Shown in pieces: positions 59,016-63,339 of a stretch of 64,000 nucleotides of DNA. Within the stretch, counting starts at the first letter, position 1. Every line of letters begins with the position of its first letter. A model generated the notes under the pieces. It was given only the letters and a program-made list of their open reading frames with translations, did not search any database and was not told the DNA's origin. Both the position numbers and the translations under genes were made by a program. The DNA is from Cuniculiplasma divulgatum (GTDB lineage Archaea > Thermoplasmatota > Thermoplasmata > Thermoplasmatales > Thermoplasmataceae). The stretch lies in NCBI GenBank assembly GCA_031200235.1, contig CP133595.1, positions 1,574,877-1,638,876 on the forward strand, given 5' to 3'.

Positions 59016-59771
59016 ATGGCCTTCATAGCAGTTACTGAATTATCCGGCACAATCAACGAGAGAAAACTTTCCGGCCTCATGCCAATACTCGACGCAGTTG
59101 AGAAAAGCTCCAGGGTGCGTGGCCTGTTGATCCATATGAACAGTTCCGGAGGTGAGGCCAATGCTTCGGAAATTCTTTTCAGGAAGGCCCGGGCTATTCG
59201 CGAAAAGAAACCCGTGATTTCATATGTATCCGGAATGTGCGCGTCGGGGGCCTACTGGGTTGCCAGTGCTTCAAACAGAATATATTCAATGGAAACTTCA
59301 TTAGTCGGTTCGATTGGTGTCATAAGTATCACGCCAAATGTCAGGAAGCTTCTGGAAAAAATCGGGATCGATGTTCAGGTAAGCAAGGCCGGTAAGTACA
59401 AGGATCTGTTAAACCCGTTCTCCGAAGCAACCGAAGAAGGGAAGCAGAAAATGTTGCATATAATCGATTCTGCTTACCAGTCTTTCTGGAAGTCGGTTTC
59501 GGCAGAAAGAAAAATACCTGATGATCAGCGCGATGCAATTGCAACAGGGGAGGTCTTTACATCTGAAGATGCCGTGAAACTGGGACTGGTTGATTCCATA
59601 GGCGGTTATACTGAAGCACTTTCAGAGATAAGGAAAATTTCCGGAATTAAAAAGACCAGATTCATAGCGCCAAGGAAGACATTTGTGTCTAGGTTCATAG
59701 GGATGGCTGTGAAAGATGCAGTCCTTGAAACCCTGGATGCATCACTGGGCTACTGCATTTCATTGCAATGA
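59016..59771 (+). CDS. SppA-type serine peptidase (S49), no membrane anchor
   Basis: A 251-residue ClpP/crotonase-fold peptidase. GLLIHMNSSGGEANASEILFRKAR (37-60) is the substrate loop, the catalytic Ser is S77 in SGMCASGAYWVA, and SLVGSIGVISITPNVRKLLEKIGI and the SKAGKYKDLLNPFSEATEEG segment (123-142, with the general-base Lys) follow. SppA normally clips signal peptides in the membrane, but here the N-terminus has no TM helix, so it may be cytosolic or peripheral, as in some archaeal and viral relatives. The M13 peptidase gene ends 40 nt away on the other strand. Confidence 0.9.
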   Translation: MAFIAVTELSGTINERKLSGLMPILDAVEKSSRVRGLLIHMNSSGGEANASEILFRKARAIREKKPVISYVSGMCASGAYWVASASNRIYSMETSLVGSIGVISITPNVRKLLEKIGIDVQVSKAGKYKDLLNPFSEATEEGKQKMLHIIDSAYQSFWKSVSAERKIPDDQRDAIATGEVFTSEDAVKLGLVDSIGGYTEALSEIRKISGIKKTRFIAPRKTFVSRFIGMAVKDAVLETLDASLGYCISLQ

Positions 59772-59811: not shown

Positions 59812-61797
59812 TTACCACACCTGAAGACTGCCGGAACCAGATACATTGGTTTCCCTCCCGAAAGCAGCGGGAAAGGCTGCGTGATTTACTGCCGGAATAG
59901 TTGCCCTGAACCTGTTGGGAGAATGCGGATCCATGGTTAACCTGAGTTTCAGTTCATCATCCCGTATGTTCTCCCGCCACACCTGAGCCCAGGACAGAAA
60001 GAATCTCTGCTCCGGCGTGAAACCATCCACGTTCACTCTTCTCTCAGGATGCCGTTTCAGGTGCCTCTGCAATGCTTCAAATGCAATGCTGACGCCACCA
60101 AGGTCAGCAATGTTTTCACCAAGCGTCAGCCTGCCATTAACCTTCATTCCAGGAAGTGCTTCAAGGGCGCCATAGGTTTCAACAACATTCTCGGCAAGTT
60201 CTTCAAATCTCCTTGAATCTTCTGGCGTCCACCAGTCCATTATATTACCATTGTCGTCGTATTTCCTCCCCTGATCATCGAATCCATGGGTAATTTCGTG
60301 CGATATAACGGCACCTACAGCTCCATAGTTGACAGCATCGTCCATCTCAGGATCAAAATACGGCGGCTGCAGGATTCCAGCTGGAAACACAATTTCATTG
60401 TCTGGTGGCGAATAGTATGCATTCACTGTTGGAGGGGTCATCATCCACTCATCAGGGTCAACGCTCCTTCCTACCCTTGTCATCTGCCGTTTCATCTCAA
60501 AGGAGGCTGATCTGCGAACGTTACCCAGATAGTCATCCGGTTTTATGGTTATGGAAGAATAGTCCCTGAATTTCTTTGGATTTCCTATCTTCACCCTAAG
60601 CTTCCCGAATTTCTTTAATGCCAGTTCCCTTGTGCTGTACCCCATCCAGGTAATTCTTTTCAGCCTATCTGAGAATACGCTGCTTATATCAGAAATGAGC
60701 TCTGCCATTTTCTGTCGTGATTCCTCTGTGAAATATCTTTCAACATAGAGTTTTCCAAGGGATTCACCCAGACACGCATCTATGATGTTGACTGCTCTTT
60801 TCCATCTGGGCTCTATGGAAGGTTGACCCCTTATCTTGCGGCCATACATGTTGAAATGCATTTCCTCTGCTTCCCTGAAAAGGTACGGAAGGGAACTGTT
60901 GATCACGTTCCACTTCATATAAAGTGCAAGGTCGGCATTTTCGGATCGGGAGACAAGAGAATCGATCTCATCCAGGAATTCCGGCTGGCCGACCACAACG
61001 TATTCCGTGTTTCCTGCGCCCAATGCATTCAGATAGGTACTGAATCCCAGATGGGGATATTTTTGGGAAAGCTCCTGAACAGACATTCTGTTGTAATTTT
61101 TTTCAGGATCTCGGAGATCCACCCTGCTTCTGGATTCCCTGGCCATTCTGGTCTCCAGATTGACTACGGTTTCCGCATATTTCCCCGATGTTTCTTCATC
61201 CTCTCCATAAAGGGTGAAAACCTTCTGTACGTAGTCACGGAATTCCCTCCTCAGTTGTGAGAAAGTCTCTGAAAGGTAGTATTCCCTGTCCGGAAGCGAT
61301 AATCCGCCCTGGTAAATATAGAGCGCATACACAGAACTGTTCTTTTCATCAGCCTGGGAGTAAGCATAGAAGAATGGAAATATCCCCATGGAGTGAATCT
61401 GGGCAAGGATTAATGGCAGTGTTTTCTTCAGATCCTGCGACGGGATAAGGTTCATATATTTCTGGATAGGCTGGAACCTGAGTTTTTCAATTACAACGGT
61501 ATCCATTGCGGATTCATAAAAGTCCGTGAGCTGCTTCCTCTCCTTTCCGGATTGGTTTTCTTCAAGCAATTTTCGCAGTCTTTTCATGTTCAGTTCATAG
61601 AGCTCAGAAAAGGCACCCCATTCTGATCTGTCCTCCGGAATTGGATGATCTCTGATCCACTTCCCGTTAGCATATGTGAAGAAATCAGAAAATGGGTCAG
61701 TTTCTTTCATCATGAATGATGTTGAAAATCCTATGGATTCCTCATCTTTGGCGGTATCATTTCCGTTCACATCGTGATTTACGCTCTTACCTTTCAT
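59812..61797 (-). CDS. M13-family zinc metallopeptidase (neprilysin/PepO-like)
   Basis: A 661-residue oligopeptidase. The zinc motif VISHEITHGFDDQG has H500, E501 and H504, and the third ligand lies in LGENIADLGG (E561). NAYYSPPDNEIVFPAGILQP (459-478) is the family S1' segment, and the N-terminal DFFTYANGKWIRDHPIP is the M13 entry motif. No signal peptide or anchor precedes it, unlike animal neprilysins, so it probably cleaves peptides in the cytoplasm as bacterial PepO does. Convergent with sppA; its divergent neighbour is an unknown gene. Confidence 0.93.
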   Translation of the reverse strand: MKGKSVNHDVNGNDTAKDEESIGFSTSFMMKETDPFSDFFTYANGKWIRDHPIPEDRSEWGAFSELYELNMKRLRKLLEENQSGKERKQLTDFYESAMDTVVIEKLRFQPIQKYMNLIPSQDLKKTLPLILAQIHSMGIFPFFYAYSQADEKNSSVYALYIYQGGLSLPDREYYLSETFSQLRREFRDYVQKVFTLYGEDEETSGKYAETVVNLETRMARESRSRVDLRDPEKNYNRMSVQELSQKYPHLGFSTYLNALGAGNTEYVVVGQPEFLDEIDSLVSRSENADLALYMKWNVINSSLPYLFREAEEMHFNMYGRKIRGQPSIEPRWKRAVNIIDACLGESLGKLYVERYFTEESRQKMAELISDISSVFSDRLKRITWMGYSTRELALKKFGKLRVKIGNPKKFRDYSSITIKPDDYLGNVRRSASFEMKRQMTRVGRSVDPDEWMMTPPTVNAYYSPPDNEIVFPAGILQPPYFDPEMDDAVNYGAVGAVISHEITHGFDDQGRKYDDNGNIMDWWTPEDSRRFEELAENVVETYGALEALPGMKVNGRLTLGENIADLGGVSIAFEALQRHLKRHPERRVNVDGFTPEQRFFLSWAQVWRENIRDDELKLRLTMDPHSPNRFRATIPAVNHAAFPAAFGRETNVSGSGSLQVW

Positions 61798-61893: not shown

Positions 61894-62460
61894 TCAGGAT
61901 CTGGACTTGATCTTCCTAGTTGAAATCTCTTCTACCTTGTCCATGAATTTTTTCAGGGCGCTTCCTGCGGGGATATCGGGGTTCAATCCCTGAGACTGCC
62001 AGTATTTTTTAAAGAAATACTGCAGGTTGAAAGTATCGGGACTCATGTAGTCAAGATTCATTAAAACAAAGTTTGTCATATCGGCAGCGACCTCTTCCGG
62101 GTTTCTGTCAGGAATTGTACCTTGCGGCAGGCCTGCTCCCTGGGGCAGTTTGGATGCGGAAGCAGATTTTTCAGAGCCAGTAACCGAGGATCTCACAAAG
62201 AGATGCACGAAACCATTCTGCAGGAATGCTATCTCTTCATGTTCAGCGGGGGCCTGGCTGGGAGCTCCAGAGGAGCTGGACGAAACATAGTGGTACAGAA
62301 TGGGAGAGTGTTCGCTCATTATTGTTTCCACGAACTTTGAGGGATCGTCCCCCTTCCAGATGAGAATCTGGTTGAATGTACCCATTATGCTGTTCTGCAG
62401 AGGGTATATCCTGACCTTTTCCCCCAGATCAGCAATGAGTTTTGAGATATCGGATGTCAT
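61894..62460 (-). CDS. Uncharacterised protein
   Basis: A 188-residue acidic, Ser/Pro-rich protein not recognised. ISKLIADLGEKVRIYPLQNS, then GTFNQILIWKGDDPSKFVETI is alpha/beta-like, while the middle (SSSSSGAPSQAPAEHEEIAF, SASASKLPQGAGLPQGTIP) is low-complexity and probably disordered. The C-terminus is helical (LQYFFKKYWQSQGLNPD, LKKFMDKVEEISTRK). There is no membrane or metal motif. It is transcribed toward the M13 gene, with 96 nt between, possibly as one unit. Confidence 0.6.
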   Translation of the reverse strand: MTSDISKLIADLGEKVRIYPLQNSIMGTFNQILIWKGDDPSKFVETIMSEHSPILYHYVSSSSSGAPSQAPAEHEEIAFLQNGFVHLFVRSSVTGSEKSASASKLPQGAGLPQGTIPDRNPEEVAADMTNFVLMNLDYMSPDTFNLQYFFKKYWQSQGLNPDIPAGSALKKFMDKVEEISTRKIKSRS

Positions 62461-62587
62461 GAATGTACGTTAGTAATTATTGGATTAATACATTCCCCTA
62501 CACTGCTAGATTTCATCTCGAAGAAGCAAATGTGGCTTTGGCTGATTTTTTCGGCAATGCTTTATGCAATGGGCACATGGCTTATAT

Positions 62588-63151
62588 ATGTACAGACATG
62601 GTTTTGTAGAGAAGGACATAGATCCGTCAACGGTGTACTCCCGCATAAAAGACATGCTGGTTGAGGACAAGTTCAACGTAACTTCGGACGAATCCAATGG
62701 AAATCTTAGGGAATTGCATGCAAGGAAGTCAAACAGGGAAAGGATAGTTCTTGGAAAGGTTAGGGATGTGGATGCCATGGTGGCTGGGCAGAAGGGAAAA
62801 TTCGAAGTTCAGTTGCATGCGGGAATATGGGGTCGCGATCTTGCAGTACCTGCCATTGAAGGCATTTTTACTTTTGGGGCAGCAACAGCAGCAGAAGTTC
62901 ACTCAGGCCATGAATACGAACTGAATCTCTGGAAGAAGGTGGTAAACCTCATAGACCCCAGCCTGAAGATGTGTGATCTGGATGGCCTGTTGTTCAATAC
63001 GCAGGAGGACCTTGACAAGCACATGAAGACCCATCAGCAGCAGGCAATGGGATATGGATCTGGAATGGGAATGATGGGTATGGGAATGCTTGGAATGGGT
63101 ATGATGGGAATGATGGGTATGGGCATGATGGGTGGAGGATTCTGGATCTGA
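62588..63151 (+). CDS. Uncharacterised protein with degenerate C2H2 finger and Met/Gly-rich tail
   Basis: A 187-residue protein. An N-terminal half (YSRIKDMLVEDKFNVTSDES, ARKSNRERIVLGKVRDVDAM, QLHAGIWGRDLAVPAI) is beta-rich and unrecognised. Residues 129-149 (CDLDGLLFNTQEDLDKHMKT-H) match the C2H2 spacing exactly (C-x2-C-x3-F-x5-L-x2-H-x3-H) except that the second Cys is Asp132. The last 33 residues are a Met/Gly-rich tract ending GGGFWI. The start is uncertain: ATG 62588 lies about 25 nt after ctttatg, but it also overlaps a ttatatatg element; the frame opens at 62564. A role in nucleic-acid or metal binding is possible. Confidence 0.65.
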   Translation: MYRHGFVEKDIDPSTVYSRIKDMLVEDKFNVTSDESNGNLRELHARKSNRERIVLGKVRDVDAMVAGQKGKFEVQLHAGIWGRDLAVPAIEGIFTFGAATAAEVHSGHEYELNLWKKVVNLIDPSLKMCDLDGLLFNTQEDLDKHMKTHQQQAMGYGSGMGMMGMGMLGMGMMGMMGMGMMGGGFWI

Positions 63152-63265
63152 TCCTCTGGATTCTTTTCTTCGCGGTTTACTGTTAATTCAGATATTTTGA
63201 CATCCTGATCTGGTTTAATGCATGGAGAATTTTTCGATTCAGCTATAATATCTGATATCCATGAG

Positions 63266-63339
63266 CGGGCCCGCCGGGATTCGAACCCAGGTCTTCGGCT
63301 TCGAAGGCCAACAGGATATCCTAGCTACCCCACGGGCCC
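63266..63339 (-). tRNA. tRNA-Arg (anticodon TCG)
   Basis: A 74-nt tRNA. The acceptor GGGCCCG pairs with CGGGCCC, discriminator G. The anticodon stem TTGGC/GCCGA with loop CTTCGAA gives TCG (Arg, codon CGA and wobble partners). The T arm is CTGGG-TTCGAAT-CCCGG with one G-U pair. Its 3' half is almost identical to that of tRNA-Arg(CCG) at 47887. CCA is not encoded. Confidence 0.93.

Follow-up and report, generated by a model that had tools for sequence, protein, structure and literature searches.

What is to be made of a C2H2-type zinc finger whose second cysteine is an aspartate, and which runs into a tail rich in methionine and glycine, in the protein of an archaeon? The question is posed by a gene in a 64,000-nucleotide stretch of the Cuniculiplasma divulgatum genome (hereafter the window), where the original prediction had recorded C2H2 spacing with Asp and a Met/Gly tail at 62588-63151. 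Re-reading of the ORF translation confirmed the observation as a whole (C2H2 spacing, Phe, Leu and both His present, second Cys replaced by Asp); the interpretation attached to it was borne out in part. The open reading frame encodes a 187-amino acid protein, present in one copy in the 2.0 Mb genome. Its ATG at 62588 was preferred over an upstream ATG at 62564, since orthologs begin at the same residue (M/V-I/Y-K/R-HGF). The gene comprises the following features:

62588 to 63151, + strand: protein-coding gene, stop codon included (ORF; conserved start; purifying selection, with synonymous changes dominating)
62588 to 62827, + strand: N-terminal alpha/beta domain, residues 1-80, predicted as beta-alpha-beta-beta-(alpha)-beta-beta (AlphaFold; Foldseek against the PDB; domain family in Thermoplasmata)
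62828 to 62953, + strand: residues 81-122, a linker that is conserved but modelled at low confidence and contains the mildly hydrophobic AVPAIEGIFTFGAATAAEV, followed by a long-helix end (AlphaFold; hydropathy; invariant columns)
62966 to 63037, + strand: C2H2-type finger, residues 127-150, ligand set Cys-Asp-His-His (orthologs; profile; AlphaFold; Foldseek)
62972 to 62974, + strand: C129
62981 to 62983, + strand: D132
63020 to 63022, + strand: H145
63032 to 63034, + strand: H149
63044 to 63148, + strand: Met/Gly-rich disordered tail, residues 153-187, ending FWI (composition; length variation; synonymous-dominated change; pLDDT <50; ortholog ends)

The motif (C129-x2-D132-x12-H145-x3-H149, with F136 and L142 in the classic C2H2 positions) is not a chance occurrence, since each distinct match to the pattern C-x2-[CD]-x3-F-x5-L-x2-H-x3-H in 1.34 million six-frame residues (window plus the other loci examined) belongs to a member of this protein's family; the 42 matches are not a gene count, as several loci are copies of the same genome. 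Compared with Pfam as a single sequence, the window protein gives a finger match below the cut-off. A profile built from the alignment of the finger stretch (A5) matches solved C2H2 fingers among PDB chains (E=1.6e-7, to a chain with several fingers), and AlphaFold confidently predicts a beta-beta-alpha fold for the isolated stretch (mean pLDDT 92). The Foldseek list for this model consists of C2H2 and UBZ fingers, single fingers superposing at 0.3-0.9 A over 22-25 residues, with E-values that are not significant for so short a chain. The finger thus shares spacing (C-x2-(C)-x3-F-x5-L-x2-H-x3-H), predicted fold and profile similarity with classic C2H2 fingers (Pfam PF00096 / PF13912 type), but it is single, has an acidic surface, falls below Pfam cut-offs as a single sequence, and departs from the C-x2-4-C-x12-H-x3-5-H spacing with core Phe and Leu in that its second Cys is Asp. 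Because this holds throughout the clade while the other positions fit, we regard the finger as C2H2-derived rather than canonical; profile and model together support a real C2H2-type fold, altered by the Cys-to-Asp change. Nor is such a fold exceptional in archaea, where it had been thought uncommon: the finger profile also matches 6skg, whose deposition describes a C2H2 zinc finger within a nucleic acid-binding protein, and which we take to be an archaeal ribosome structure.

Does the aspartate mark a finger in decay? Searches at order, class and family levels showed that several genera of the window's own family have full orthologs carrying both finger and tail. So do Candidatus Sysuiplasma and related genomes (f14), and a single f15 genome (L041/L053), where the finger reads Cys-Cys-His-Glu (CCHE). 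The Cys-Asp-His-His (CDHH) set is kept in all 12 full-length members of the window's clade (the window protein included), as well as in truncated or frameshifted copies (L010, L042, L011). Among these, the Thermogymnomonas acidicola gene lies in two pieces (L011/L043), has a His spacing of x4 and a deposited frame that breaks twice, and its open downstream frame ends GGFWI. The aspartate is therefore the conserved state of the clade and not a recent lesion, and what had been termed a degenerate finger, correctly as to the substitution itself, is better called Asp-substituted. Relatives with CxxC at this site, as had been proposed to look for, do exist (L041, L068, L070); each has Glu at the fourth ligand position, so that the aspartate accompanies an exchange at the fourth ligand, with four potential ligands retained in both CCHE and CDHH. 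Two of them (L068 and L070) have a further HH pair; these are paralogs that lack the Met/Gly tail and end FYV, an aromatic-aliphatic end like the FWI of the tailed clade. In a tree of the N-terminal domain (27 rows, 132 columns; few forks strongly supported), finger-bearing rows group together (93/96), with CDHH (84/79) and CCHE (100/98) as sister groups, and this topology puts the change of ligands down to one event rather than independent covariation.

It is rather improbable that the finger has lost its metal and folds by its hydrophobic core alone. Asp in place of Cys would fit such a loss, and the bacterial Ros/MucR domain Ml5, which lacks zinc, still works (PMC9779718); against this, no sequence of the finger clade departs from C129 or H145, and every CDHH member retains D132 and H149, whereas other finger positions vary, and the H-x4-H of Thermogymnomonas is still within C2H2 spacing. 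The same family also offers the precedent for metal binding, as Cys-Asp-His2 zinc sites are documented in Ros87_C27D (PMC5745721) and in Ml1-Ml3 (PMC9779718). The likeness lies in the ligand set of a C2H2-type finger, and no sequence link is claimed: Ros/MucR proteins have a larger, 58-residue beta-beta-beta-alpha-alpha DNA-binding domain and belong to alpha-proteobacteria, whereas the window finger is a short beta-beta-alpha unit of net charge -3 in an archaeal protein with a different N-terminal domain, and membership of Ros/MucR was rejected.

A regulator of transcription, or another nucleic acid-binding protein of the Ros/MucR type, would account for a C2H2 fold with Cys-Asp-His2, and among the weak fold matches of the N-terminal domain is the RNA-binding VCR of METTL16. 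We consider this quite improbable, as the finger is acidic throughout the CDHH clade (net charge -1 to -3, where a Zif268 finger has +3), and this speaks against DNA reading; the N-terminal domain is likewise acidic in all CDHH members, the single finger ends a domain unlike that of Ros, and there is no basic tail.

The N-terminal half, originally described as matching nothing known, does have relatives, its domain occurring across much of Thermoplasmata: a query with the window protein found it in 51 of 117 genomes from the order, and the family profile found it in 44 of 390 taken from the phylum. AlphaFold models the domain with pLDDT mostly of 82-95, dipping to 61 at residues 51-60. No match above cut-off was found for it in Pfam or NCBIfam, and a PDB sequence search with the 131-amino acid relatives returned nothing significant. 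Foldseek against the PDB (best E 1.8e-3, TMt ~0.5) suggests weak likeness to Flpp3, the KA1 domain of Chk1, BamC-N and the METTL16 VCR, likenesses too weak for us to name a function; a match in a viral fold library (E 8.5e-4, TM ~0.28) was not convincing. In relatives the domain stands alone (about 131 amino acids) or precedes a zinc ribbon scoring above or close to the PF13240 cut-off. The zinc-ribbon relatives (L069, L071, L072, L073, L074) have an N-terminal domain homologous to that of the window protein and likewise carry a zinc module at the C-terminus, but that module is a PF13240-type ribbon instead of a C2H2-type finger, the Met/Gly tail is absent, and the segment between is strongly hydrophobic. 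A plasmid search with one such relative gave no match.

Between domain and finger, pLDDT falls below 50 at residues 81-104 and a helix is predicted at 96-122, with E111 invariant and W115 nearly so. This stretch bears on the idea of a peripheral membrane protein inserted into the bilayer by segment 86-104 and the tail, with the finger as a spacer. The equivalent segment of zinc-ribbon paralogs is strongly hydrophobic and glycine-zipper-like (KD19 2.04 in L072), and the N-terminal domain is weakly fold-like KA1 and envelope-associated proteins; in the window protein, however, the segment is only mildly hydrophobic (KD19 1.21) and lies in a low-confidence region, while the tail has a mean hydropathy of 0.88, lower than expected of a transmembrane helix. 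Gly-Met alternation, moreover, disfavours a helix. We hold membrane insertion of this kind to be unlikely.

Met and Gly make up 76% of the tail itself (counted, like those of the orthologs, from residue 151). They account for 27 of the residues in its best 30-residue stretch; the next-richest stretch elsewhere in the window has 10. Tails of CDHH members span 29-42 residues and 60-76% Met+Gly, so that the length variation expected of a repeat is present, and every tailed ortholog with a readable end finishes in an aromatic residue and Ile. Judged by codon changes, the tail is under purifying selection, synonymous and non-synonymous changes numbering 6:0, 15:3 and 11:7 in three pairs of relatives. 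As these changes are mainly synonymous and Gly codons are mixed, we reject repeat slippage as the whole story, even though, in two other near pairs of relatives, short Met/Gly units have been gained or lost in frame.

The original interpretation had suggested copper- or mercury-like metal binding by the tail. In a fuller form of this idea, the tail would bind Cu(I), Ag(I) or Hg(II) as soft metals and the protein would buffer copper in metal-rich acidic habitats, the finger serving as structure. Met motifs are known in copper proteins, and MxM and MMxM spacings recur in this tail. The tail has neither Cys nor His, however, and the protein shows no evident N-terminal signal peptide, although Met-only copper sites are mostly found outside the cytosol; no copper gene was recognised by eye among the ORFs around the gene. 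What persists is the Gly alternation and the aromatic-Ile end, whereas the number and spacing of Met vary, a pattern that suits a role in flexibility and hydrophobicity better than copper. No result supported copper- or mercury-like binding, which we consider improbable, and chaperonin-like Gly/Met tails offer a nearer precedent.

Such tails are the nearest studied analogue (PMC11978752; PMC12571646): in GroEL they matter for function, and their hydrophobicity and flexibility are critical (PMC11978752). One thermosome subunit of the window's own genome (L130, G000:C1:339046-340512, - strand) ends GGMGGMGGMGGMPPY, a GGM-repeat, GroEL-like tail; the second (L131) has none. Like the tails of GroEL/Hsp60 and archaeal thermosomes, that of the window protein is a C-terminal Gly/Met repeat, hydrophobic and flexible, but it has more Met, is built of (GM/GMM)n rather than GGM, keeps an aromatic-Ile end and sits on a non-chaperonin protein; the likeness is one of composition, not homology. 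Membership of the group I or II chaperonins was rejected, the window protein matching no Cpn60/TCP1 domain in Pfam and the genome's two thermosome genes lying elsewhere.

Genes around the locus were read by eye from ORF lists, in which we saw no neighbours of the finger gene conserved outside near relatives. A tRNA-Arg gene (anticodon tcg; window 63265-63339, - strand) lies just downstream. On the other side lies a 188-amino acid ORF without Pfam match (61894-62460, - strand), which was seen next to the finger gene in just one other locus, that of a close relative (L124). Beyond it lies a 661-amino acid ORF with HEITHGFDDQGRKYDDNGN (59812-61797, - strand), which from its sequence we presume to be an M13 (neprilysin-type) metallopeptidase, next to an ORF (59016-59771, + strand) that we take to be a possible S49-type signal peptide peptidase. 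An N-domain-only paralog (L142 6204-6599, + strand), with orthologs in L132-L144, stands next to purC-like genes in many genomes, the window's own among them. Often it also adjoins a 153-162-amino acid gene of RHH-like appearance, and a proteasome-beta-like gene and others lie near; the neighbourhood is conserved within this taxonomic order (these names reflect the look of the sequences). A literature search on zinc fingers and methionine in Thermoplasmatales found nothing relevant among the papers covered.

We tentatively favour, at somewhat less than even confidence, a conserved and probably cytosolic adaptor of the Thermoplasmata, heat- and acid-loving archaea, whose flexible hydrophobic tail is offered to clients or membrane by a metal-stabilised finger. 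What the analysis shows is the conservation, the predicted fold, the ligand pattern and the selection on the tail; zinc binding, cellular location and a role towards clients or membrane are inferred from these. In this reading the compact N-terminal alpha/beta domain leads into a long helix and then one C2H2-fold finger, most likely holding Zn2+ via Cys129, Asp132, His145 and His149; the finger would act as a small structural knob, not a DNA reader, presenting the Met/Gly tail with its aromatic-Ile end. By analogy with chaperonin Gly/Met tails and their clients, the tail would likely contact hydrophobic clients or membrane reversibly and with low specificity. Several observations count against this adaptor: its AlphaFold models contain no metal, Cys-to-Asp changes can distort eukaryotic C2H2 sites (PMC5745721), no gene neighbour conserved beyond near relatives hints at a client, and the ligands changed in a single event. 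The gene is also patchy among congeners, one of which (G105) lacks it, while another (G106) has a decayed copy (L012, G106:C94; five stop codons, finger Cys lost), so that it seems dispensable in the G106 lineage. A more specific proposal, which we hold to be distinctly unlikely, is a lineage-specific archaeal chaperone or targeting factor whose Cys-Asp-His2 finger presents a chaperonin-like, client-binding Gly/Met tail, an independent invention outside chaperonins.

The window protein is a variation on known parts, and we do not regard it as a new type of system. Its family is a natural archaeal instance of the Cys-Asp-His2 set, best known from bacterial Ros/MucR; with its Cys-Cys-His-Glu sister clade, it would allow direct study of how a C2H2 finger changes its metal ligands. 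With a chaperonin-like Gly/Met tail on a non-chaperonin protein, the role of such tails becomes testable outside the chaperonin cage.
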